Shown here one piece after another: positions 51,231 through 63,930 of a DNA stretch of 64,000 nt (position 1 is the stretch's first letter; every line of letters begins with the position of its first letter). The notes below the pieces were generated by a model, which saw only the letters and a program-made list of their open reading frames with translations, had not been told where the DNA came from and did not search any database. The stretch is from positions 1 through 64,000 of the forward strand of contig NZ_JAUOZU010000022.1 in the NCBI RefSeq assembly GCF_030551875.1, in the 5' to 3' direction. A program made the translations under genes and the position numbers. This stretch comes from Fluviirhizobium alvei (lineage in GTDB: Bacteria > Pseudomonadota > Alphaproteobacteria > Rhizobiales > Rhizobiaceae).

Positions 51231-52145
51231 TCAGGTTCCTGCCATACCACCGCCGAAGGACAGGCTGAGAAATTCCGAGAAGGTCCGTGTGGCTTGCGAC
51301 TGGGGGATCGACCTATTCCAGGTCACTCCGATATCCATGGTCGGGATATCGGCAACGACATTGCGAAGTTCGATCCGCTGGCCATCGAGCGACCAGGGGC
51401 GATAGACCATATCGGACAGGATGGTGATGCCGACCCCATCGGCAACGAAACTGCGTACGGCCTCGACCGAGGATGTCTTGAAAATTACCCGCGGTTCGAG
51501 CCCGACATTGTGCCAGTAACGGCCCGCCGTTTCGCTCGCCTCATCGACGGTCAGCATCACATAGGGTTCGTTGGCGACATCCTCGAGCGTGATGGTTTCC
51601 TTGGAAAGCAGCGGATGCTCGGCCGGCAGCCACAAGCGTCTTCGCGACCGCAGCAAAGTTTCAAACGCCAGATGCGTCTTGTCCCTCAGGTTGGACACCA
51701 GCATCACCGCCATATCGAGCGAACCATCGTTCAACCGTTCTTCGAGCAGATGGCGCGGCAACTCCTGCAATTCGACATTGATCTTGGGATAGGTACGGGC
51801 AAAGCGCGCATGAAGCCGCGGCAGGAAGTAGCCCAGCACGGTGTAGGTGACACCGACCCTGACCGTACCCGTATGGGCGGTATCTTCGGTCAGCGGCGCC
51901 CGTTCCGCCGAGTTGACGGCCGCCATGACGTTGCGCGCATGATAGAGAAATCGGGTGCCTTCGGCCGTCAGCACCATGCCGGTGGCGAGCCGCCGGAACA
52001 GGCTGACGCCGAGATTGTCCTCGAGCTGCTTGATGGCGGCAGTAACCGCTGATTGCGACACATTGAGCGCGATCGCGGCCTGGGAAACCTGGCCGGAATC
52101 AGCGGTTGCGATGAAGTAGCGGACCTGTTTGATCGAAAGGGGCAT
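51231..52145 (-). CDS. LysR-family regulator of the pxp operon
   Basis: The 304-aa protein has a classical LysR N-terminus (RYFIATADSGQVSQAAIALN, VSQSAVTAAIKQLEDNLG) and an effector domain (VRVGVTYTVLGYFLPRLHAR, LRDKTHLAFETLLRSRRRLW). It is divergent from pxpA with 121 bases between the starts, so it probably regulates the pxpA-pxpC operon. The AT-rich part of that region (52150-52235) likely holds both promoters. Confidence 0.9.
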   Translation of the reverse strand: MPLSIKQVRYFIATADSGQVSQAAIALNVSQSAVTAAIKQLEDNLGVSLFRRLATGMVLTAEGTRFLYHARNVMAAVNSAERAPLTEDTAHTGTVRVGVTYTVLGYFLPRLHARFARTYPKINVELQELPRHLLEERLNDGSLDMAVMLVSNLRDKTHLAFETLLRSRRRLWLPAEHPLLSKETITLEDVANEPYVMLTVDEASETAGRYWHNVGLEPRVIFKTSSVEAVRSFVADGVGITILSDMVYRPWSLDGQRIELRNVVADIPTMDIGVTWNRSIPQSQATRTFSEFLSLSFGGGMAGT

Positions 52146-52266: not shown

Positions 52267-52980
52267 GTGGCAATTCTCAATTGCGACATGGGCGAAGCTT
52301 TTGGCCTTTACAAGATGGGCGATGACGAAGGTCTGATGCCCCTGATCGATATTGCCAATGTGGCCTGCGGCTTTCACGCTTCGGATTTCAACCATATGCG
52401 CTCCACCGTCCGGCTTGCCCGAAAGCATGGCGTCCGCGTCGGTGCGCACCCGTCATTGCCTGATTTGCAGGGCTTTGGCCGCCGTGAAATGAAGATCGGC
52501 CGCGAGGAACTGGCTAACTGCATCATCTATCAGGTCGGCGCGCTCAAGGGCTTCCTCGATGCCGAGGGGCTGACGCTCAACCATATCAAGCCGCACGGCT
52601 CGCTCTACGGCATGTCGGCGCGCATGGAGGATGTCGCCCATGCCGTGTGCGATGCAGCAGACGTGTTCCGCGTGCCGCTGGTCGGCATGATCAATACGCT
52701 GCACGAGACGATCTATACCGAGCGCGGCCACACGTTCATGGCCGAGTTCTATGCCGATCTCGATTACAACGATCAGGGGGGGCTGATCATCACCCGCGAG
52801 CATGAGGCGAAGGATGCGGCCAAAGCCGCCGAAATCTGCCGCAGAGCTGTGACGGAGGGGCTGGTGAAAAGCGTGGGAGGCGTCGACATCGAGGTCAAGG
52901 CGGATACGATCTGCGTCCATTCGGATACGCCGAATGCCGTCGAGATCGCGAGCGCGGTGCGTAACGTCCTCAAGAACTGA
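52267..52980 (+). CDS. pxpA: LamB/YcsF-family protein (5-oxoprolinase subunit A-like)
   Basis: The 237-aa protein is a PxpA-type TIM-barrel-like protein: ILNCDMGEAFGLYKMGDDEG, ANVACGFHASDFNHMR, GAHPSLPDLQGFGRREM, and HIKPHGSLYG are the family blocks. In bacteria PxpA works with PxpB and PxpC as an ATP-dependent 5-oxoprolinase. A GTG start at 52267 is preferred because GGAGG lies six bases upstream; the TTG at 52261 abuts that site. First gene of an operon with biotin carboxylase genes. Confidence 0.87.
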   Translation: MAILNCDMGEAFGLYKMGDDEGLMPLIDIANVACGFHASDFNHMRSTVRLARKHGVRVGAHPSLPDLQGFGRREMKIGREELANCIIYQVGALKGFLDAEGLTLNHIKPHGSLYGMSARMEDVAHAVCDAADVFRVPLVGMINTLHETIYTERGHTFMAEFYADLDYNDQGGLIITREHEAKDAAKAAEICRRAVTEGLVKSVGGVDIEVKADTICVHSDTPNAVEIASAVRNVLKN

Positions 52981-53008
52981 ACGAACGAAAACCAAAAAGG
53001 GGTCCATC

Positions 53009-53245
53009 ATGTCCAAGCAACTTCTCTCCCCGCTGCCCGGCACATTCTACCGCAAGCCCTCGCCCGATGCCGCACCTTACAAGAATGTCGGCGATCCGGT
53101 CGCCGTTGGCGATGTCATCGGCCTGATCGAGGTGATGAAGAGCTTCAACGAGGTTCATGCCGATCAGGCGGGCACGATCAAGGCCTTTGCCGCCGACGAC
53201 GAAGAACCGGTGATGGCCGGCCAGCCGCTTGCCGAACTGGAATAG
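53009..53245 (+). CDS. Stand-alone biotin carboxyl carrier protein
   Basis: The 78-aa protein is a single biotinyl domain. The modified lysine is K44 in LIEVMKSFNEVH. It lacks the Pro/Ala-rich linker of AccB, so it is only the carrier domain. The ATG at 53009 has AAAAGGGG upstream. It lies between pxpA and the biotin carboxylase gene, which starts 4 bases after its stop. Confidence 0.9.
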   Translation: MSKQLLSPLPGTFYRKPSPDAAPYKNVGDPVAVGDVIGLIEVMKSFNEVHADQAGTIKAFAADDEEPVMAGQPLAELE

Positions 53246-53249
53246 GCCG

Positions 53250-54635
53250 ATGGCAATCCGGAAGCTTCTGATTGCCAACCGGGGTGAGATTGCAGTCCGC
53301 ATCATCCGTGCAGCGCGCGAACTCGGCATCGAGACAGTGCAGGTCCACAGCGCCGCCGATACCGAAATGCTGGCCGTGAAGATGGCCGACGAGGCCGTCA
53401 ATATCGGCCCACCCCATGCCGCCAAATCCTATCTCAACATCGATGCCATTCTTGCCGCTGCCAAAGCGACGGGTGCGGATGCCATCCACCCCGGCTATGG
53501 TTTCCTGGCCGAAAATGCCGGCTTTGCCGATGCTGTGGAAGCTGCGGGCCTGATCTTCGTCGGCCCCACCGGCGAGCAGATCCGCACCATGGGCGACAAG
53601 GCCATGGCGCGGACCGCAGCCCTGGCCGCAGGCGTCCCTTGCGTGCCCGGTTCGGATGGCCGCATCGACAGTGCCGAGGAAGCACGCGAAGTCGCTGCCC
53701 GCATTGGCTTTCCGCTGATGATCAAGGCCGCTGCCGGCGGTGGTGGGCGCGGCATCCGCATTGCCGCAACGCCGGAGGAATTTGAACATCTGATGGCGCA
53801 GGCAAGTGCGGAAGCCAAGGCCGCATTCGGCGATGGCGGCCTCTATGTCGAAAAGGTCATCCAGCGCGCCCGCCATATCGAGGTGCAGATCCTTGCCGAT
53901 GGCGACAATGCCATCCATTGCTATGAGCGCGAATGCTCGCTGCAGCGACGTCGCCAGAAGGTCTGGGAGGAAGCGCCCTCCGCCACCCTGCCCGCCGATA
54001 TCCGCGAAAAGCTCTGCGCTTCCGCAGTGGCTCTGGCAAAGGCGGTGCATTATCGCGGCGCCGGCACGATCGAATATCTCTATGACGACCAGTCGGGCGA
54101 GTTCTACTTCATCGAGATGAACACCCGCATCCAGGTCGAGCATCCCGTCACCGAAATGGTGACCGGCATCGATCTGGTGCGCGAGATGATCAAGATCGCC
54201 GGCGGCGCCAAGCTGGCGCTCCGCCAGGAAGACGTTCGGCTCAAGGGCGCCGCGATCGAGGTTCGCATCAATGCCGAGGACCCGGCGAAGAACTTCCAGC
54301 CGGGGCCCGGCACGATCAGCCAGCTCTCGGTGCCGGGTGGCGCCGGCACTCGCTTCGATACGATGCTCTATCAGGGATACACGGTTCCGCCCTTCTACGA
54401 TTCCCTGCTCGGCAAGCTGATCGTCTGGGACGAGACGCGCGGAGCGGCGATCGAGCGGCTGAAACGGGCACTTGGCGAACTTGAAGTCGGCGGCATGAAG
54501 ACGACCAAGCCGCTCTTTGCCCTGCTGGCCGCGGATCCGGATGTCCGGGCGGGCGCCGTGCACACGCGCTGGTTGGAGCCCTGGCTGGAAATCAATGCTG
54601 CAAAAATGCAAGAACAAGAGGGAACAGGTTCATGA
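53250..54635 (+). CDS. Biotin carboxylase subunit
   Basis: The 461-aa protein has the full biotin carboxylase set: N-terminal LIANRGEIAVRIIRAARELG, ATP-grasp glycine loop KAAAGGGGRGIRI, RHIEVQILAD and the catalytic EMNTRIQVEHPVTEM. It would carboxylate biotin on the neighbouring carrier protein. Size matches AccC-type single subunits. It overlaps the pxpB-like gene by four bases, so it is expected to act with it and not only in fatty-acid synthesis. Confidence 0.92.
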   Translation: MAIRKLLIANRGEIAVRIIRAARELGIETVQVHSAADTEMLAVKMADEAVNIGPPHAAKSYLNIDAILAAAKATGADAIHPGYGFLAENAGFADAVEAAGLIFVGPTGEQIRTMGDKAMARTAALAAGVPCVPGSDGRIDSAEEAREVAARIGFPLMIKAAAGGGGRGIRIAATPEEFEHLMAQASAEAKAAFGDGGLYVEKVIQRARHIEVQILADGDNAIHCYERECSLQRRRQKVWEEAPSATLPADIREKLCASAVALAKAVHYRGAGTIEYLYDDQSGEFYFIEMNTRIQVEHPVTEMVTGIDLVREMIKIAGGAKLALRQEDVRLKGAAIEVRINAEDPAKNFQPGPGTISQLSVPGGAGTRFDTMLYQGYTVPPFYDSLLGKLIVWDETRGAAIERLKRALGELEVGGMKTTKPLFALLAADPDVRAGAVHTRWLEPWLEINAAKMQEQEGTGS

Positions 54636-55501
54636 AGACACGCTACTCCTTTGGGGGTGACGAGCATATCTTCGTCGAATGCGACGAGGAAATGTCACTC
54701 GAAGCCTTCTTCAAATCGCTTTCCATCACCACGGCGGTCAAGGAAGCGCAGATCAAGGGCGTCACCGAGATCTGCCCGGCCAATGCCTCCTTCCAGATCA
54801 AGTTCAATCCGGATGTCATTTCGCCTGACGACATGCTGCGCGAACTGAAATCGATCGAAGCCTCGGCCGCCAGCGGCGAATCCTCGATCAAGACGCGCAT
54901 CATCGAGATCCCGGTCTATTACAACGATCCCTGGACCCATGAGACGCTGATGCGTTTCCGCGAACGCCATCAGGATCCGAGCTCCACCGATATCGAATAT
55001 ACCGCCCGCATCAACAATCTCGACGGCGTCGACGGCTTCATCAAGGCGCATTCGGGTGCGCCCTGGTTCGTCTCGATGGTCGGCTTCGTCGCCGGCCTGC
55101 CGTTCCTCTACCAGATGGTCGACCGCTCGCGGCAGATCCAGTCGCCGAAATATCTGCGTCCCCGCACCGATACGCCGCGCCTCACCGTCGGCCATGGCGG
55201 CTGCTTCGGCTGCATCTATTCGGTGCGCGGTGCCGGCGGCTACCAGATGTTCGGCATCACGCCGATGCCGATCTACGATCCCAACCAGACGATCAAGTAT
55301 CTCCGCGACTTCATGTGCCTGTTCAAGCCGGGTGACATCGTCAAGTGGAAGCCGATCGGCCGCGATGAATATGACGCGACCGTCGCCGATGTCGACCAGG
55401 GCAAGTTTGCGCCGACTATCCGCGAAGTGCCCTTCTCGCTCACGGAATTCCAGGCAGACATGGATGGCTACAACACCAAACTGATGGGGGCGCTGAAATG
55501 A
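54632..55501 (+). CDS. pxpB: KipI/AHS1-type carboxyltransferase subunit (pxpB-like)
   Basis: The 289-aa protein belongs to the allophanate hydrolase subunit 1/KipI family, with the conserved VGHGGCFGCIYSVRGAGGYQ, FGITPMPIYDP and PGDIVKWKPIG regions. It is about 70 residues longer than E. coli PxpB (218 aa) and closer in size to the AHS1 part of urea carboxylase. With the pxpC-like product it would form the biotin-dependent carboxyltransferase. It overlaps the biotin carboxylase and pxpC-like genes by four bases each. Confidence 0.85.
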   Translation: MKTRYSFGGDEHIFVECDEEMSLEAFFKSLSITTAVKEAQIKGVTEICPANASFQIKFNPDVISPDDMLRELKSIEASAASGESSIKTRIIEIPVYYNDPWTHETLMRFRERHQDPSSTDIEYTARINNLDGVDGFIKAHSGAPWFVSMVGFVAGLPFLYQMVDRSRQIQSPKYLRPRTDTPRLTVGHGGCFGCIYSVRGAGGYQMFGITPMPIYDPNQTIKYLRDFMCLFKPGDIVKWKPIGRDEYDATVADVDQGKFAPTIREVPFSLTEFQADMDGYNTKLMGALK

Positions 55502-56469
55502 GCATCCGGATCATCACACCTGGCCTGTCCACCACCGTGCAGGATCTCGGCCGCCCCGGCTACTATCACATCGGCATTCCGATCTCGGGCGCCATGGACC
55601 GGCTCGCCGCCCGCGCCGCCAACCTGCTTGTCGGCAACGACGAGAGTGATGCACTTCTCGAAGTCGTCTTCATGGGTCCGGAAATCGAGTTTCGCAAGGC
55701 CGCCACTGTAGCCGTCACCGGCGCCGAACTACCGCCGAAGGTCAATGGCGAGGAGCGCCCGACCTGGACATCCTTCACCGTCAAGGCCGGCGACACGCTC
55801 TCCTTCGCCTTTCTGAAGAAGGGGGCCCGTGCCTATGTGGCGATCTCCGGCGGCATCGATGTGCCGGTCGTTCTCGGTTCGCGTTCGACCTACACGCTGG
55901 GCGCCCTCGGCGGCCATGAAGGGCGCAAGCTTGCGGCAGGCGATGTGCTGCTTCTGGGCGACGGCAAGGGTGCCGCCGCCGGTCGCACCGTTCCGGAAGC
56001 CCTGAGACGCGCGCCGGGGGCGCCGGCTGAACTGAGGATGCTGCCGGGCCTCTACTGGCACCGCATAACCGAAGCCGCCGGCAAACAGTTCCTTGAAGAT
56101 ACCTGGAAGGTGGCGCCGGAAGCCGACCGGATCGGTTACCGTTTCCGCGGCGGCAAGCCGCTCGAGTTTGTGCCACGCGAACCGCCTTTCGGAGCCGGAT
56201 CGGACCCGTCCAACATCGTCGATGCCTGCTATCCCTACGGATCGATCCAGGTTCCGAGCGGCACCGAGCCGATCGTGCTCCATCGCGATGCCGTCTCTGG
56301 CGGCGGCTATTTCATGGTCGGTGCGGTGATTTCCGCCGACATGGACCTGATCGGGCAGTTGCAGCCGCATACGCCGGCCAAGTTCGTCGAAGTCACGATG
56401 GATGAGGCTCTTGCCGCCCGCCGCGAACGTGCGGCGCTGATCGACCGCATACGTGAGGCACTGGTCTGA
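55498..56469 (+). CDS. pxpC: KipA/AHS2-type carboxyltransferase subunit (pxpC-like)
   Basis: The 323-aa protein is of the AHS2/KipA family: ITPGLSTTVQDLGRPGYYHI, PISGAMDRLAARAANLLVGN, VAISGGIDVPVVLGSRSTY and a C-terminal GYFMVGAVISADMDLIGQL. In urea carboxylase AHS1 and AHS2 form the carboxyltransferase; in 5-oxoprolinase PxpB and PxpC do the ATP-dependent step. Last gene of the operon, followed by a perfect hairpin. Confidence 0.88.
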   Translation: MSIRIITPGLSTTVQDLGRPGYYHIGIPISGAMDRLAARAANLLVGNDESDALLEVVFMGPEIEFRKAATVAVTGAELPPKVNGEERPTWTSFTVKAGDTLSFAFLKKGARAYVAISGGIDVPVVLGSRSTYTLGALGGHEGRKLAAGDVLLLGDGKGAAAGRTVPEALRRAPGAPAELRMLPGLYWHRITEAAGKQFLEDTWKVAPEADRIGYRFRGGKPLEFVPREPPFGAGSDPSNIVDACYPYGSIQVPSGTEPIVLHRDAVSGGGYFMVGAVISADMDLIGQLQPHTPAKFVEVTMDEALAARRERAALIDRIREALV

Positions 56470-56526: not shown

Positions 56527-57495
56527 TCAGTTTGCCGTGCGCATTCGTGCGCGCGTCTGATCCCGGAATTCCTTGGGCGTGATGCTGTAGTGCGCCTTGA
56601 ATGCACGCGAGAACTGGGCATGGTCACTGAAACCGAAACGATAGGCGATTTCCGCCACCGTCTGCCTGTTGGAAGGATCGGCCAACGCCGACCGGCACGC
56701 CATCAGTCGCTGGTCGCGTACCCAGCTGCCCAGCGTCTGGTTGGTGTCGCGGAACAGTTCATGCAGGTAACGGACGGACAGGCCGCAGGCGCGCGCCACC
56801 GTTTCGGGATCAAGCTCGGCATTATGCAGATTGCGGCGAACGAAAGCTTCGATGCGCGTCAGATGCGCCGTCCGCACGGACGAGCTGCCCGCCGTCAAGG
56901 TGCGTTCGTCGGCCTTCAGCGACAGGACAAGCAGATCGACGAGCTGTTTTCCGACCGCGCGCCGCACCTCTTCCGACATAGCATCGAACCGGGCCGGAAT
57001 ATGCTGCAGCATGTCGGTGAAGAGGCCGCCCGCACCTTCGGTGGCATTGAACTGCATCGAGCAGAACCGGTCCGGCTGGCGGATCTCGGCGGCGAGTTCG
57101 CTCGATTCCACCTTCATCACCCAGAGATCGGCAAAGTCGTCGTGCCAGAATTCGTAAGGCTCGTGGCTGCGTTCAAGAAAGAAGCCGCCCGGCTGGCATT
57201 GAACCTCCTTGCCGCATTGGGAGAAGTTGACCTGCGAGCGGATCGGAACCGTGACCAGAAAATGCTCGTCGCGTTCTGCCTTCATGTGCTTCGGCAGCCG
57301 ACGGTATTGCAGCGATTCCGAGGCGAGCCGCGACAGCGAGACATCTCCAAGCGTCCAGATCATCAGGTCTCCGGCAAAATTGTCGGTGTTGCGGAAGGTC
57401 AGATCGAGCGGGAAATAGGCGCTGGCGATCGCCTCATGCCAGTGACGGCTGCGGTCATGACGCGGGGTCTCCTCGGTCGTAATGATGGACTTCAT
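56527..57495 (-). CDS. AraC-family regulator of the hyu-liv operon
   Basis: The 322-aa protein has an N-terminal AraC-binding-like domain (about residues 20-185) and a C-terminal double HTH: LDPETVARACGLSVRYLHEL, then VAEIAYRFGFSDHAQFSRAF and STPKEFR-like ITPKEFRDQ. The ATG at 57495 has AGGGGAA upstream; the longer open frame to 57600 is not supported. It is divergent from hyuB, so it probably activates the hyu-liv operon. An inverted CCAAGC/GCTTGG pair at 57569-57586 is a possible site. Confidence 0.87.
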   Translation of the reverse strand: MKSIITTEETPRHDRSRHWHEAIASAYFPLDLTFRNTDNFAGDLMIWTLGDVSLSRLASESLQYRRLPKHMKAERDEHFLVTVPIRSQVNFSQCGKEVQCQPGGFFLERSHEPYEFWHDDFADLWVMKVESSELAAEIRQPDRFCSMQFNATEGAGGLFTDMLQHIPARFDAMSEEVRRAVGKQLVDLLVLSLKADERTLTAGSSSVRTAHLTRIEAFVRRNLHNAELDPETVARACGLSVRYLHELFRDTNQTLGSWVRDQRLMACRSALADPSNRQTVAEIAYRFGFSDHAQFSRAFKAHYSITPKEFRDQTRARMRTAN

Positions 57496-57677
57496 GTGTC
57501 GTTCCCCTTTTTTTTCCATGAAAAGGTATGGAAGGGCCGCTCGTCCAGCGAAATCTTGAGAATCTGCGCCAAGCGTCAAGGCTTGGTGCGCCGGATGCAA
57601 AGACCGGCGACGAGATCCGGCCTTAGGCTTTCCTCCATCAGCAGAACCCGCATTGCCGGGTCAGAAAAGAGGGAGCT

Positions 57678-59438
57678 ATGACCAAGCCACACAAACCGAA
57701 AGTCGACCCGATCACGCTCTCCGTGGTCCGTGGCGTGCTCGAGACCACCCAGCGCGAAATGACGCTGTCGCTCGAAAAGACAGCACGTTCCTCGGTGTTC
57801 AACCTTGCCCACGATTACTCGACCGCGCTGTTCAACGGCCGGCCCGAAATGATCCTGCAGGGCCAGGACATCCCGATCCATCTCGGCTCGCTCATCCCGG
57901 CCATGAAATCGGTTGCGCGCTATTTCGAAGGCGACATCCATGACGGCGACCTGATCCTGCACAACGACCCGGCCTTCGGTGGCAGCCACGCCATCGATAC
58001 CTGCATGTACAAGCCGGTCTTCTACAAGGGCGAACTGGTCTACTGGACGGTCTGCAAAGGCCATCTCACCGATATCGGCGGCCCGGTGCCGGCCGGCTAC
58101 AACCCCAACGCCACCGAAATCTATGCCGAATGCCTGCGCATTCCGCCGGTCAAGATCTGGGACAAGGGCCGTCCGCGCAATGACGTGCTCAACCTCATCT
58201 ACACCAACATGCGCGCCCGCCGCGACCAGGAGGGCGATTTCAACGCGCTCATCGGCGCCTGCCAGGTCGGCGAACGCAACCTGATCGCGCTGCTCGACAA
58301 ATATGGCAAGGAAACCGTCGATGCCTGCGTCGACGAACTGCTCGACATGGCCGAAAAGCATATGCGCGATCTCATGCGCACTGTGCCGGACGGAACCTAT
58401 GAAGGTGCTGCCATTCTCGAGGATGCCGGCCACGGTTTCGGCGATTTCGAGATCAAGGCCACGGTCAAGATCGAAGGGGACAGCTGCCACATCACCATCC
58501 AGAGCCCGCCGCAGATTCCCTATTTCATCAATTCCTACGAGGGCAATTCGCATTCGGGCGTCTATCTCGGCCTGATGATGTTTGCGGCCCTGCCCCCACC
58601 CTACAATGAAGGGCTCTATCGCTGCGTCTCGATCGATTTCGGACCTAAAGGCACGATCTGCAATGCGCAGGAACCGGCCCCGCACATGAACTGCACCACC
58701 ACCCCGATGGAAACACTGACCGATGCGGTGCGCCTCGCCTTCGAAAAGGCGATGCCGTCGAAGGTTGCCGCCTCCTGGGGCCATGCCAACGGGCTGAACA
58801 TTGCCGGCTGGGACAAGCGCACCAACGAGGAATATGTGACGATGGTGCTCGCCACCATCATTTCCGGCGGTGGTGCGACACCGCAGCAGGATGGCTGGCA
58901 CGCGGTCGGCCCGGAATGCTGCTTCGGCGCCCTCACCTCGGGTGATGTCGAACTGCTCGAATACTCCTATCCGATCATCATTCATCGCTATTCGCTGATG
59001 GCCGATAGCGGCGGCGCGGGCAAGTTCCGTGGCGGTTCCGGTACCGCCTGGGAAGTCGAGCCGCTCGATGGCGACATGCTCTGCATCGGCTTCGGCGAAG
59101 GTCGCCGCATTCCGGCCATGGGTGCCGCCGGCGCCTATTCTTCCGACGTCGACACCAAGGTCGGTCGTGTCGAACTCAAGCGTGGCGGCGAAGTCGATGT
59201 CCGCCGCACCAACATCATGGAGACGATCAAGCCCGGCGACACCGTGACCAACATGAACCCCGGCGGCGGCGGCTATGGCAACCCGCATGAACGACCGATC
59301 GAACGCGTCCTCTGGGACGTCAAGAACGGCCTCGTTTCCATCGAAGGTGCCAAGCGCGACTATGGCGTCGTGATCACCGATCCCGAAACCCTCACCGTGG
59401 ACCAGGCGGCAACGCGGGCCCTCCGGTCGGCTGCGTGA
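57678..59438 (+). CDS. hyuB: Hydantoinase B/oxoprolinase-family subunit
   Basis: The 586-aa protein matches HyuB: LEKTARSSVFNLAHDYSTAL, IPIHLGSLIPAM, LHNDPAFGGSHAIDTCMY and NPGGGGYGNPHERP. With HyuA it forms an ATP-dependent amidohydrolase that opens hydantoin, N-methylhydantoin or 5-oxoproline rings, or an acetone-carboxylase-like enzyme. GAGGGAGC precedes the ATG. It is followed 14 bases later by hyuA and then by transporter genes, so the operon takes up and opens a cyclic amide-type compound (inference). Confidence 0.9.
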   Translation: MTKPHKPKVDPITLSVVRGVLETTQREMTLSLEKTARSSVFNLAHDYSTALFNGRPEMILQGQDIPIHLGSLIPAMKSVARYFEGDIHDGDLILHNDPAFGGSHAIDTCMYKPVFYKGELVYWTVCKGHLTDIGGPVPAGYNPNATEIYAECLRIPPVKIWDKGRPRNDVLNLIYTNMRARRDQEGDFNALIGACQVGERNLIALLDKYGKETVDACVDELLDMAEKHMRDLMRTVPDGTYEGAAILEDAGHGFGDFEIKATVKIEGDSCHITIQSPPQIPYFINSYEGNSHSGVYLGLMMFAALPPPYNEGLYRCVSIDFGPKGTICNAQEPAPHMNCTTTPMETLTDAVRLAFEKAMPSKVAASWGHANGLNIAGWDKRTNEEYVTMVLATIISGGGATPQQDGWHAVGPECCFGALTSGDVELLEYSYPIIIHRYSLMADSGGAGKFRGGSGTAWEVEPLDGDMLCIGFGEGRRIPAMGAAGAYSSDVDTKVGRVELKRGGEVDVRRTNIMETIKPGDTVTNMNPGGGGYGNPHERPIERVLWDVKNGLVSIEGAKRDYGVVITDPETLTVDQAATRALRSAA

Positions 59439-59452
59439 AAGGAGACATGATC

Positions 59453-61540
59453 ATGACCAGCAACAAGAACCGTTATCGCCTCGGCATCGACGCCGGCGGC
59501 ACCTTCACCGACTTCGTTGTCGCAGACCGCGAGAGCGGTGAGATCAAGCTCTTCAAGGCGCTCTCGACACCGACGGACCCGACGAAGGCAATCCGCAACG
59601 GCCTGAAACTGATCCATGAAGCGATCGGCGTCTCGCCGGAAGAACTCGTCTCCCAGAGCGATCTCTGCATCAACGGCACCACCGTGGGCCTCAATGCGCT
59701 GATCACCCATCGCGGCGGCAAGACCGGCCTCATTGCCACAGCCGGCCACGAGGATTCGATCGAGATCCGCAACGGCCACAAGGAAGACGGCTTCCGCTAT
59801 GACCCGGAATATCCGGCTGCGACCATGCTCGTGCCGCGCTATCTTCGCAAGGGCGTGCGCGAACGCGTGCTGTCCGATGGCTCAGTGCGCACCCCGATCC
59901 ATGAAGAGGATGTGCGGGCGGCTTGCGAACTCTTCCTCAAGGAAGGCATCGAGACCGTTGCCATCTCCTTTGTCTGGTCGGTCCTCAACCCGGCCCATGA
60001 ACGCCGGGCTGCCGAAATCGTCCGCGAAATGATGCCGGATGCGATCCTGACCGTCGGTTCGGAACTCTATCCGCAGGTGCGCGAATATACCCGCACTTCG
60101 ACGGCGGTGGTGAATGCCTATCTCGCCCCGGTGATGCGTCGCTATGTGCGGGCCGTGGACGCCTATTTCCGCGATCTCGGCGCCGCCCAGCCGGTGCGTT
60201 ACTTCCAGTCGAACGGTGGCCTTGCCATCGGCCAGGTGATGACCGACCGCTCAGTCTATGCCATCAATTCCGGCCCGGCTTCGGCGCCGCAGGCCGGTCT
60301 CTATGTCGGCGCTCCGTTCGGCAAGAAGAACGTCATCACCGTCGATATGGGCGGCACATCCTTCGACATTACCCTGACCAAGGATGGCCAGACCAACCTC
60401 AACAAGAATATCGACTTCCTGCGTTACCGCATCGGCGTGCCGATGATCCAGGTCGAAACGCTCGGCGCCGGCGGCGGTTCGATCGGCTGGATCGATCCGC
60501 TCGGCATCATCCAGGTCGGTCCGCAGTCGGCCGGTTCAGAACCCGGCCCGGCCTGCTACGGCCAGGGCGGCACCGAACCGACCACGTCGGATGCCAACCT
60601 GGTGCTCGGCTATCTCTCGCCGGACGGGCTTCTTGGCGGCAAGCTGCCGCTCGATATCGAACGGGCACGCGCAGCCATGCGCCGGGTTGCCGATCCGCTC
60701 GGCATCTCGATCGAACGCGCCGCCTACGGCATGTACACGATCGTCAACAACAACATGGTCAACGGCATCCGCCGCGTTTCGGTGGAACGCGGTTACGATC
60801 CGCGCGACTTCGTGCTGGTCGGTGCCGGTGGCGCCACTGCCGCCCATATCACGGCGCTTGCCCGTGAAATCGGCATCGACACGATCATCCTGCCCAAGCT
60901 CGCCTCCGGCCTCTGCGCCTTCGGCCAGATCATCTCGGATGTGAAATACAACTACATGGCCACCGCCCCGGTGCGGCTCGACAACGATGCCGCCTACAAG
61001 CGGATCGACGATCTCTACAAGCAGGTGGAGGCCGAAGGCCGCCAGCATCTGGTGTCCGACGGTTTCACCGACGAAACCATCGAGATTCGCCGCTCGCTCG
61101 ACATGCGTTATGTCGGGCAGGTGCATGAATGCACCGTCGATATCGACATGTTCGATATCGACGAGACGACGATCGACCGGGTCAAGGAAGCCTTCCACCG
61201 CCGGCACAAGGAACTCTACACCTATGCCGAGCCGCACAATCCGGTCGAGGTGGTGAATATCGAATCCACCCTCTATGGCCGGATCGAAAAGCCGAAATTG
61301 CCGGAAAAGCCGAAGGCGGGTGCTGTCGGCGGAGCGATCAAGGATCATCGCGACGCTATCTTCGACGCATCCGGCAAAGCCACCCGCACGCCCGTCTATG
61401 ACGGCGAGAAGATCGGTACGGGAGAGCCGATCAAGGGGCCGGCGATCATTGAGGAGGTTACGACCACCATCGTCATCGAGCCCGGCTGGACCGCCGTTCT
61501 CGACAAGACCAACTCCTACCTCATCACGCGCGACCAGTAA
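59453..61540 (+). CDS. hyuA: Hydantoinase A/oxoprolinase-family subunit
   Basis: The 695-aa protein matches HyuA: LGIDAGGTFTDFVVADRESG is the nucleotide-binding segment at the N-terminus, and ITVDMGGTSFDITL and LVGAGGATAAHITALAREIG are further actin-like phosphate loops. The start at 59453 (MTSNKN) has GGAG eight bases upstream; ATG at 59447 is too close and GTG at 59435 precedes the site. It couples ATP use to ring opening with HyuB. Confidence 0.9.
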   Translation: MTSNKNRYRLGIDAGGTFTDFVVADRESGEIKLFKALSTPTDPTKAIRNGLKLIHEAIGVSPEELVSQSDLCINGTTVGLNALITHRGGKTGLIATAGHEDSIEIRNGHKEDGFRYDPEYPAATMLVPRYLRKGVRERVLSDGSVRTPIHEEDVRAACELFLKEGIETVAISFVWSVLNPAHERRAAEIVREMMPDAILTVGSELYPQVREYTRTSTAVVNAYLAPVMRRYVRAVDAYFRDLGAAQPVRYFQSNGGLAIGQVMTDRSVYAINSGPASAPQAGLYVGAPFGKKNVITVDMGGTSFDITLTKDGQTNLNKNIDFLRYRIGVPMIQVETLGAGGGSIGWIDPLGIIQVGPQSAGSEPGPACYGQGGTEPTTSDANLVLGYLSPDGLLGGKLPLDIERARAAMRRVADPLGISIERAAYGMYTIVNNNMVNGIRRVSVERGYDPRDFVLVGAGGATAAHITALAREIGIDTIILPKLASGLCAFGQIISDVKYNYMATAPVRLDNDAAYKRIDDLYKQVEAEGRQHLVSDGFTDETIEIRRSLDMRYVGQVHECTVDIDMFDIDETTIDRVKEAFHRRHKELYTYAEPHNPVEVVNIESTLYGRIEKPKLPEKPKAGAVGGAIKDHRDAIFDASGKATRTPVYDGEKIGTGEPIKGPAIIEEVTTTIVIEPGWTAVLDKTNSYLITRDQ

Positions 61541-61550
61541 GAAGGGAAGC

Positions 61551-62294
61551 ATGGCTCAGACACTCTCGGCAGATATGGTTTCGGTGGCCTTCGAGGGCTT
61601 GCGGGCTCTTTCGGACGTCACGCTGGAGATACCCGCCGGGCGGGTAACGGGCCTGATCGGTCCCAACGGTGCGGGCAAGACCACATGCGTCAATGTCCTC
61701 ACCGGCTTTCAAAAACCGTCCGCGGGCCGCGTGCTGCTCGACGGGCGCGACATTGGCGGTCTGCCGGCGCATCGCGTCCGGCAGGCCGGCATCGCCCGGA
61801 CCTTCCAGTCGGGCCGGCTGTTCGCCGACCTGACGGTCCATGAAAATCTCGAAGTGACCGGCGTCGGACTTGGCCTGTCGCGTCGCGAATCCGCCCGCAA
61901 GGCCGATGCCATGCTGGACTGGATCGGCATTTCACCGCTCGCCGACCGGCTGGCCGGCGGCCTTCCCTATACAGACGAGCGTCGGGTCGCGATCGGCCGG
62001 GCACTGATGCTCGAACCCGCCTTCCTGCTTCTCGACGAGCCGGCCGCCGGCATGTCGGCGGAAGAGGCGGACGACCTTTCCCGCCTCATTCACCGCATCA
62101 CCAACGAGGTGAAATGCGGCGTGCTGCTGATCGAGCACAATGTCGGCCTCGTCCTGTCGACCTGCCACGAGATCTATGTGCTCGACAGCGGCGCCATCAT
62201 CGAATCCGGCACGCCCGAGGCGATCAAGGCCAGTGAGAAAGTCCGCCACGCCTATATGGGCACCCAGGCCGACGAGGAAGGAGAGATCCTGTGA
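61551..62294 (+). CDS. Branched-chain-type ABC transporter ATPase (LivG-like)
   Basis: The 247-aa protein has Walker A (GPNGAGKTTCVNVL), a Q-loop GIARTFQSGRLFADLTV, Walker B (FLLLDEPAAGM) and the C-terminal LivG-type tail; the signature is degenerate (ADRLAGGLPYTDERR instead of LSGGQ). The start at 61551 follows GAAGGGAAG; the open frame beginning at 61275 mirrors hyuA. It sits 10 bases after hyuA, so the importer is co-transcribed with the hydrolase. Confidence 0.88.
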   Translation: MAQTLSADMVSVAFEGLRALSDVTLEIPAGRVTGLIGPNGAGKTTCVNVLTGFQKPSAGRVLLDGRDIGGLPAHRVRQAGIARTFQSGRLFADLTVHENLEVTGVGLGLSRRESARKADAMLDWIGISPLADRLAGGLPYTDERRVAIGRALMLEPAFLLLDEPAAGMSAEEADDLSRLIHRITNEVKCGVLLIEHNVGLVLSTCHEIYVLDSGAIIESGTPEAIKASEKVRHAYMGTQADEEGEIL

Positions 62295-63019
62295 CCCTGC
62301 TTTCCGTCAAGGACATCACCGTTCGCTATGGCCGCCTGACGGCGCTGCGCGGCGTTTCGCTTTCGCTCAACGAGGGCGAGATCCTGTTTGTGACCGGACC
62401 CAATGGCGCCGGCAAATCTACGCTCATGAAGGCGATCGCCGGCGTCGTCAAACCGGTCAGCGGCACGATTTCCTATCGCGGCAACGAAATTGCCGGTCGC
62501 CCGCCCGAAGATATCGCGCGCCTCGGCTTTTCCATGGTGCCGGAAGGTCGTGATGTGTTCAGCGCGCTGACGATCGAGGAGAACCTTCGCCTCGGCATCG
62601 GCATGCGTGCCGACAAGGACCAGGCCGCCCGCGACCTCGAGATGGTCTATTCGATCTTCCCGATCCTCGACAGCCGCAAGCACCAGCATGCTGGAGCCCT
62701 GTCGGGCGGCCAGCAGCAGATGCTGGTCATCGGCCGCGCCCTGATGGCCGGGCCGAAGCTGATCGCCATCGACGAACCGTCGCTCGGTCTCGCACCCAAG
62801 GTCATCGACGATGTCTATGCGACGCTCGTGCGGCTGCGCGACACGATCGGGCTCACGCTGCTGATCGTCGAACAGAGCGCCACCCGCGCCAAACTGACCG
62901 GCGGCCGCATGATCCTGATGCGGACCGGCGAAGTCGCACTCGAGGGTGATGCCCGCGAGCTCGCCAGCAGCGACGCCTTGAAACAGGCCTATTTCGGTTA
63001 CGGGGAGCAGGGCAAATGA
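62291..63019 (+). CDS. Branched-chain-type ABC transporter ATPase (LivF-like)
   Basis: The 242-aa protein has Walker A (GPNGAGKSTLMKAIAG), signature LSGGQQQMLVIG and Walker B (KLIAIDEPSLGL), with the LivF-type GFSMVPEGRDVFSALTIEEN. It starts at a GTG overlapping the LivG-like stop by four bases and ends overlapping the permease by four. Confidence 0.92.
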   Translation: MTLLSVKDITVRYGRLTALRGVSLSLNEGEILFVTGPNGAGKSTLMKAIAGVVKPVSGTISYRGNEIAGRPPEDIARLGFSMVPEGRDVFSALTIEENLRLGIGMRADKDQAARDLEMVYSIFPILDSRKHQHAGALSGGQQQMLVIGRALMAGPKLIAIDEPSLGLAPKVIDDVYATLVRLRDTIGLTLLIVEQSATRAKLTGGRMILMRTGEVALEGDARELASSDALKQAYFGYGEQGK

Positions 63020-63930
63020 CAGCGATCCTTCAGGTCATCTTCGACGCGTTGAGCCTCGGCAGCCTCTATGCGCTCGGCGCGCTCGGCATTGCGCTGATCT
63101 TCGGCGTCATGCGGCTGGTCAACTTTGCCCACGGCGACACGATGGCCTTCTGCGTTTTCGCACTTCTCTGGCCCTCGGTCGATGCGGCGGCCATCGTGTT
63201 TGCTGGCAACCTGCCAGCCTGGCTGCTCGTTCCCTTCATCCTCGCCGTTGGTGCCGGCCTTTCGGTCGCATCCGAAATCATCGTCTTCCGGCGGTTCCGC
63301 AACACCAATCCGGCCACGATGATGATCGCCTCCTTCGCGCTCGGTTTCGTGATCCGCTATTTCCTGCTGATGCTCTATTCGAGCCGGCCGAAGAGCATCG
63401 ATCTCTTCTCCAATCTCGGCCTGCCGGTCGAGATCCTCGGAGCGCGCATTCCGCTTCTGCAGGTCATCACCATCGTCACGGCCGTCGTGATCCTGCTGGC
63501 GCTCACCTACTTCCTCAAGCGCACCCGTTTCGGGCTGGAAATGCGGGCGGCAGCGGAGAACTTCACCATGGCGCGCATGCTAGGCGTGCGCGCCAACCGG
63601 GTGATCATGCTGGCCTTTGCGCTGTCCGGCATGCTGGCGGCGGCGGTCGCCCTCATTCTCGTCACCCAGACTGGTACTGCCGATATCCAGATGGGCGGCA
63701 ACATCATGCTGATCGCCTTCATCGCCACCGTCATCGGCGGGCTCGGTTCGCTGCCTGGGGCGGTGTTCGCCGGCTTCCTGATCGGCGCCATCGCCGTGAC
63801 CATGCAGGTGGTGCTGCCGCCGGAAGCACGGCCCTTCCGCGATGCCTTCGTCTATGCCGCCGTGATCGCGACGCTGATCTGGCGCCCCAATGGCATCTTC
63901 ATGCCGAAATCCGCCAAGCAGAGGGTGTAA
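63016..63930 (+). CDS. Branched-chain-type ABC transporter permease (LivH-like)
   Basis: The 304-aa protein is a hydrophobic permease with about eight membrane segments; SLGSLYALGALGIALIFGVM at the N-terminus and GGLGSLPGAVFAGFLIGAI near the C-terminus are family hallmarks. It overlaps the LivF-like gene by four bases. The periplasmic binding protein for this importer is not in the window. Confidence 0.9.
   Translation: MTAILQVIFDALSLGSLYALGALGIALIFGVMRLVNFAHGDTMAFCVFALLWPSVDAAAIVFAGNLPAWLLVPFILAVGAGLSVASEIIVFRRFRNTNPATMMIASFALGFVIRYFLLMLYSSRPKSIDLFSNLGLPVEILGARIPLLQVITIVTAVVILLALTYFLKRTRFGLEMRAAAENFTMARMLGVRANRVIMLAFALSGMLAAAVALILVTQTGTADIQMGGNIMLIAFIATVIGGLGSLPGAVFAGFLIGAIAVTMQVVLPPEARPFRDAFVYAAVIATLIWRPNGIFMPKSAKQRV

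Follow-up and report, generated by a model that had tools for sequence, protein, structure and literature searches.

A candidate biotin-dependent lactam hydrolase encoded by a conserved five-gene operon of Fluviirhizobium alvei

A stretch of 64,000 nucleotides from Fluviirhizobium alvei (RefSeq assembly GCF_030551875.1, contig NZ_JAUOZU010000022.1, positions 1 to 64,000 of the forward strand; hereafter the window) carries a gene for PxpA in one operon with genes for a biotin carrier, a biotin carboxylase (BC) and the carboxyltransferase proteins AHS1 and AHS2. This raises the question as to what the hydrolase PxpA does in the company of a full set of carboxylase parts. Biotin carboxylase uses ATP and bicarbonate to form carboxybiotin, and the carboxyltransferase of urea carboxylase moves the carboxyl group on to nitrogen; related lactam-opening enzymes are thought to activate the ring amide by phosphorylation. 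Judging from sequence comparisons, we think it probable that the five proteins form a biotin-dependent lactam hydrolase, which would N-carboxylate a lactam, open its ring via PxpA and release CO2. An earlier note on this DNA had proposed N-carboxylation of a lactam or amide followed by hydrolysis by PxpA; of the readings weighed below this one is best supported.

The operon occupies 52267-56469 on the forward strand, exactly where the earlier note had placed it, and Pfam confirms every family named there. pxpA (52267-52980) starts with GTG and encodes 237 residues of the LamB-YcsF family (PF03746, 293.6 bits), the proposed lactam-opening hydrolase; its product passes the subfamily model NF003814 (266.8 bits, cut-off 226) and falls below all three PxpA equivalog models. 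The carrier (53009-53245; PF00364; NF005457, 122.5 bits, cut-off 87) is a biotinyl domain only, 78 residues long, and the lysine singled out earlier, K44, is found within the motif EVMKSF. The BC (53250-54635, 461 residues) has three biotin-carboxylase Pfam domains, passes NF009471 (760.8 bits, cut-off 686) and aligns over its full length with solved biotin carboxylases, its motifs being judged by eye. As in biotin-dependent carboxylases, the operon has a biotinylatable lysine and an intact BC, and biotinylation is predicted. AHS1 (54632-55501, 289 residues, PF02682) represents carboxyltransferase subdomains C and D (CT_C_D), with K173 at the proposed general-base position, and AHS2 (55498-56469, 323 residues, PF02626) represents subdomains A and B (CT_A_B), with Q251 at the position that selects for urea or guanidine. 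All five frames are intact, with zero internal stops. The earlier note had described overlapping genes; overlaps of 4 bases exist between BC and AHS1 and between AHS1 and AHS2, whereas pxpA and the carrier are separated by 28 bases and the carrier and BC by 4. The G+C content of the operon (0.621) is near that of the window (0.614), giving no sign of recent import.

Is this arrangement a local accident? Operon-type AHS1 (the window's protein and relatives 69-76% identical to it; next match 38%) occurs in 16 genomes of a class sample of 289, and AHS1 relatives at E <1e-140 in 16 genomes of a phylum sample of 398, plus one intermediate; the two samples have two genomes in common, one of them the window's. 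A scan of species genomes yielded at least 585 stretches that encode some AHS1 relative, and the examination covered the best 80 of these (hereafter the named loci). As the best-scoring ones these are skewed to close relatives, with two loci (L102 and L187) holding identical AHS1; they include Rhizobiales, Rhodobacterales, Dongia, Marinobacter and an Arenimonas bin. Together with the window, 15 class-sample loci and 14 phylum-sample loci they make up 110 loci, 101 of which have adequate flank (3.4 kb or more before AHS1 and 1.2 kb or more after it). The complete set of pxpA, carrier, BC and AHS2 surrounds AHS1 within 5.5 kb on the same strand in 97 of these 101 loci, window included, so that the gene arrangement is not due to chance. 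By part, pxpA is present in 100, the carrier in 99, BC in 98 and AHS2 in 101; in locus L047 pxpA lies about 7 kb off. The biotinylated position is lysine in 104/104 carriers read (window included), mostly within VMKSF or VMKTF. Variants exist on haloarchaeal plasmids: Natrinema clusters have AHS1, AHS2, BC, carrier and pxpA in a different order, and a Natrialba plasmid has AHS1, AHS2 and carrier together, with neither BC nor pxpA listed nearby. An Agrobacterium rubi plasmid (L221:3038-12858) holds a divergent version of the operon, then an LLM-class oxidoreductase and the F420 genes cofD, cofC and cofH. More distant AHS1 genes number five in G196 (L062-L066) and four in G081 (L040-L042), two genomes of one family; BC and carrier accompany some of these genes, and pxpA accompanies one.

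What the carboxyltransferase might act on can be approached through its active site. We aligned the 110 operon AHS1s (109 distinct sequences, 86 clusters at 95% identity, window included) with 12 urea/guanidine carboxylases, 23 canonical PxpBs and 10 intermediates, and placed the positions of the K. lactis urea amidolyase (KlUA) by residue counts along the aligned chain 5i8i_A; the count lands on Lys 1605, Asp 1584 and Asn 1330, in agreement with the papers. According to these, K1605 is the proposed general base of urea carboxylase (PMC5770610), and D1584 and N/D1330 serve to recognise guanidine carboxylase and tell it apart from urea carboxylase (PMC11410670). K1605 corresponds to K173 of the window's AHS1, and lysine is present there in 110/110 operon AHS1s, 12/12 carboxylases and 8/10 intermediates; the other two intermediates have leucine, and all 23 canonical PxpBs have arginine. 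The D1584 position holds aspartate in all 12 urea/guanidine carboxylases and in none of the 110 operon AHS1s. Two alignments differ as to whether this aspartate is an insertion rather than a substitution, and the operon proteins are without it in both. At N/D1330, glutamine is found in all 109 scorable operon AHS2s (that of one truncated locus has a gap here) and in 23/23 PxpCs, and the carboxylases have aspartate (11) or asparagine (1). Since the general-base lysine is kept and both recognition residues are lost, the pattern suggests that the operon carboxyltransferase is a hybrid, in which a carboxyltransferase base is combined with a PxpBC-like substrate site.

These residues bear directly on whether the operon encodes a split urea or guanidine carboxylase. 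Like those enzymes (TIGR02712; 5i8i, 3va7), it has all four domain types and the lysine at the general-base position, and they provide the best match to the AHS1 structure model. Unlike them, it is split into four proteins, is without the recognition aspartate and asparagine/aspartate, and includes PxpA. The earlier equation of the four parts with urea carboxylase thus stands for domain content and falls for specificity, as the recognition residues are lost. The absence of allophanate hydrolase that had been reported was borne out: no protein of the genome passes the cut-off of 511 (8 weaker matches, best 192 bits), and of 30 genomes with the operon 19 have none. That the operon encodes such a split carboxylase for urea or guanidine is most improbable, and this identity was rejected on account of the recognition residues together with the missing allophanate hydrolase.

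A PxpBC-like substrate site could also belong to an ordinary phosphorylating 5-oxoprolinase PxpABC, to which the carrier and BC are hitch-hikers or extra parts of acetyl-CoA carboxylase. The operon does share with PxpABC the gene for PxpA, the grouping of PxpA-, PxpB- and PxpC-like genes, and substrate-site residues in AHS1 and AHS2 that are common to PxpB and PxpC. The NCBIfam models matched by its carrier (NF005457) and BC (NF009471) carry acetyl-CoA carboxylase names, and a few relatives, described below, are without BC, two of them without a carrier as well. It differs in having two additional biotin proteins and in the properties of its carboxyltransferase. AHS1 has lysine rather than arginine at the base position, scores 120 bits with the urea carboxylase model and misses the PxpB model TIGR00370 (67.6 bits, cut-off 145.55); AHS2 misses the PxpC equivalog model NF045499 (215.7 bits, cut-off 500). 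At 71 residues more than YbgJ (218-residue chain 5dud_B), AHS1 has the extra length of about 70 residues over E. coli PxpB that the earlier note had given, and its likeness to the urea carboxylase domain, also pointed out there, extends over residues 2-275 of AHS1.

Phylogenies of three of the proteins, which are quick trees with long PxpB branches, largely separate the operon proteins from canonical ones. In the AHS1 tree (74 rows, 28 of operon type) the operon proteins form one group (Shimodaira-Hasegawa-like approximate likelihood ratio test, SH-aLRT, 100), and a fully supported branch unites them with urea carboxylases and intermediates, leaving PxpB outside. The BC tree has 24 rows labelled as operon BC, and AccC is separate from the single group (98) that 22 of them make up; the two others are a haloarchaeal BC and the 697-residue protein of locus L195, which is a further, distinct BC-containing protein encoded there. 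In the PxpA tree, 32 biotin-linked rows and one intermediate come together (97), apart from 20 canonical rows and one Lactiplantibacillus row. Taken together, the AHS1, BC and PxpA trees indicate that the operon parts travel as a set, and BC is apparently dedicated to the pxpA-AHS operon.

The rest of the genome also speaks to the role of the biotin proteins. Four of its proteins have a biotin-carboxylase C-terminal domain: the window's BC, one on contig C23, a 695-residue frame and a 1164-residue frame. On C23 an AccB-type carrier (C23:30627) stands beside the BC (C23:30868), and owing to this accB-accC-type pair the operon BC and carrier are not the only acetyl-CoA carboxylase candidates of the genome; that they serve acetyl-CoA carboxylase alone, which the earlier note had named as a test of its proposal, is unlikely. 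No AccA/AccD-type carboxyltransferase was found among the nine proteins scanned between 51.2 and 61.5 kb. Outside the operon the genome holds a single pxpA and a single pxpB, together forming a canonical-type pair on contig C8. In that locus (L039:10970-12183) pxpA runs straight into a gene for a 149-residue AccB-like carrier (TIGR00531, 102 bits, cut-off 115.2), pxpB and pxpC are divergent from pxpA, and the 20 kb read contain no BC match. With a canonical-type PxpA and PxpB encoded separately and an accB-accC-type pair elsewhere, an ordinary 5-oxoprolinase with incidental biotin genes is improbable.

Biotin supply also favours the proposed reading, in that bioY genes (PF02632; biotin uptake) flank several operons. 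The 30 operon-bearing genomes have 35 bioY genes, 8 of which lie within 7 kb of AHS1, against about 0.1 expected by chance from random placement in genomes of 4.7 Mb. The eight genomes with adjacent bioY include two of the same genus; of the 30 genomes, 10 are without bioY and 12 carry it solely at other places. In the gene listing of an Acidiphilium plasmid, the operon is followed by bioB.

If the operon carboxylates something other than urea, what would that be? The neighbouring genes suggest a lactam. Downstream on the forward strand lie genes for both subunits of caprolactamase, CapB (beta, 57678-59438; NF050157, 1099.8 bits, cut-off 1000) and CapA (alpha, 59435-61540; NF050156, 1237.4 bits, cut-off 1000; 879.8 bits to chain 6yra_A), which are possible functional partners. 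They are followed by the start of an ATP-binding cassette (ABC) transporter of the branched-chain-amino-acid type (61557-63930, forward strand; ATPase, ATPase and permease, open reading frames named by eye). An AraC-type regulator (56527-57600, reverse strand; PF14525, PF12833) separates operon and caprolactamase genes, and a divergent LysR-type regulator (51231-52145, reverse strand; PF03466, PF00126) lies upstream of pxpA, with a LysR match in 61 of the 80 named loci. CapA above its cut-off is found in 3/16 operon-bearing genomes of the class sample and in 0/273 of the others (Fisher p 1.4e-4), or in 2/15 (p 0.0025) with the window's genome excluded; scoring was limited to three candidates in each of the 289 genomes, so that lower-ranked copies are uncounted. 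CapA adjoins the operon in two of the three genomes and lies about 14 kb away in one. Among the named loci CapA stands behind AHS2, directly before pxpA or before the LysR gene, and these at least three gene orders favour a functional link over a single inherited arrangement. The caprolactamase paper (PMC8453981) describes lactam opening that depends on ATP and requires bicarbonate, with lactim carboxylation as one published option for the mechanism. CapAB would thus resemble the operon in its chemistry; it belongs to other protein families (hydantoinase A and B, within the hydantoinase/oxoprolinase family), in which no biotin domain was found.

A lactam is not the only candidate. A biotin-dependent carboxylase of the same build might act on a linear amide, a hydantoin, a ureide or a carbon acid, with PxpA processing the carboxylated product or acting on a related compound. 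The transporters next to the operon differ by lineage (branched-chain-amino-acid type, sugar type), and the distant AHS1-AHS2 pair of L065 adjoins an amidase and an allantoinase, so that substrates across the wider family may vary. On the other side, the two marker positions of urea/guanidine carboxylases show the PxpBC pattern, PxpA is kept close by in all but one of the 101 loci, and the adjoining CapAB points to lactams; for the operon itself a non-lactam substrate is rather unlikely.

Several observations weigh against a biotin-dependent lactam hydrolase. BC is missing from three of the 101 loci (L106, L192, L194) and the carrier also from L192 and L194; in L054, one of the nine loci with shorter flank, the carrier directly precedes AHS1 and both flanking genes are present, with no BC. 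The genomes of L192 and L194 (G504 and G604) have carriers that are all below the operon-carrier cut-off, and their best BC is 54% identical. Dedicated biotin proteins are therefore not strictly required. In all four loci AHS1 keeps the general-base lysine, and the units of L192 and L194 may borrow housekeeping biotin parts. The lysine itself is no clean sign of biotin use, since two arginine-type cases are linked to biotin proteins. The Lactiplantibacillus plasmid pKM2-5 has an operon with BC and biotin carboxyl carrier protein (BCCP) genes in which PxpB is of the arginine type and the carrier motif is EAMKM, unlike here. A PxpBC-like pair of M. smegmatis has arginine at the base position, and the title of entry 9yx5 has it bound to an acyl-CoA carboxylase complex. 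Next, CapA above 600 bits is sparse (28/80 named, 1/15 class-sample and 0/14 phylum-sample loci), so that a lactam as the common substrate is unproven. Furthermore, a study of S. aureus, compared by description only, lists the accBC genes of a six-gene operon of pxp genes, accB and accC under fatty-acid synthesis (PMC11315280). Finally, the AHS1 structure model has a mean predicted local distance difference test (pLDDT) of 77 and falls below 50 at residues 151-155 and 175-203, around the active site. The K. lactis urea amidolyase and carboxylase are its best matches (template modelling score 0.75-0.78 by query; E. coli YbgJ, 0.45-0.52), and owing to the poorly modelled active-site region the model supports the overall fold only and no residue-level claim. 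The AHS2 model does not separate E. coli YbgK from urea carboxylase, its matches to the two being nearly equal. On balance, N-carboxylation of a lactam is best supported because the lysine is kept, the recognition residues follow the PxpBC pattern, BC and carrier are operon-specific, and biotin and caprolactamase genes lie nearby.

From the gene content, residue conservation and linkage observed here we infer the substrate and every chemical step of the following scheme. BC would use ATP and bicarbonate to form carboxybiotin on the carrier, as its family does. The AHS1-AHS2 carboxyltransferase would then use carboxybiotin to carboxylate the lactam at its ring nitrogen, with K173 of AHS1 as the general base, a role modelled on urea carboxylase. 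N-carboxylation would weaken the ring amide so that PxpA can hydrolyse it, and the resulting N-carboxy amino acid would shed CO2. Bicarbonate would thus be catalytic, and the net reaction would be an ATP-driven opening of a lactam. As substrate, a gamma- to epsilon-lactam is the likeliest, for example 5-oxoproline, 2-pyrrolidone or a caprolactam-like compound.

Do known systems offer a precedent? LamA of Aspergillus nidulans is a putative urea-carboxylase-like biotin enzyme, and we take the parallel as a lead only. Published accounts describe A. nidulans lamB as a lactam-utilisation gene to which B. subtilis pxpA (ycsF) is related, with lamA and lamB serving lactam catabolism. Bacillota pxp-accBC operons are similar to that of F. 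alvei in combining pxpA, pxpB and pxpC with a biotin carrier and BC. For L. pentosus, further genes for BCCP and BC have been reported and interpreted as one more copy of acetyl-CoA carboxylase; pxpB and pxpC are reported there as a separate matter (PMC12427679). By its title, entry 9yx5 places the mycobacterial PxpBC-like pair on the complex of a long-chain acyl-CoA carboxylase, a hint that proteins of the PxpBC type are able to bind foreign biotin carboxylases; a literature search by its locus names found no paper on that complex.

The literature searched, in which subscription papers are mostly uncovered, gave no description of a biotin-dependent lactam hydrolase of this kind. The plasmid records examined give the parts separate labels, namely acetyl-CoA carboxylase, carboxyltransferase or allophanate hydrolase, and 5-oxoprolinase. 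The operon encodes a real, conserved enzyme system that has probably been mis-annotated. A more speculative possibility, which we put forward with some doubt, is that biotin N-carboxylation, cleavage by PxpA and recovery of CO2 make up a second lactam-opening chemistry, that the PxpBC fold perhaps began as a biotin carboxyltransferase, and that some canonical-looking pairs (Lactiplantibacillus, mycobacteria) may still take carboxyl groups from biotin carriers. If the proposed reaction is correct, a large gene set (at least 585 stretches with some AHS1 relative) would belong to one uncharacterised lactam-degrading enzyme, and a second bicarbonate-dependent route of lactam opening would exist beside caprolactamase. 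Such a biotin-based enzyme could also serve as a biocatalyst for the monomers of nylons, 2-pyrrolidone and caprolactam among them.

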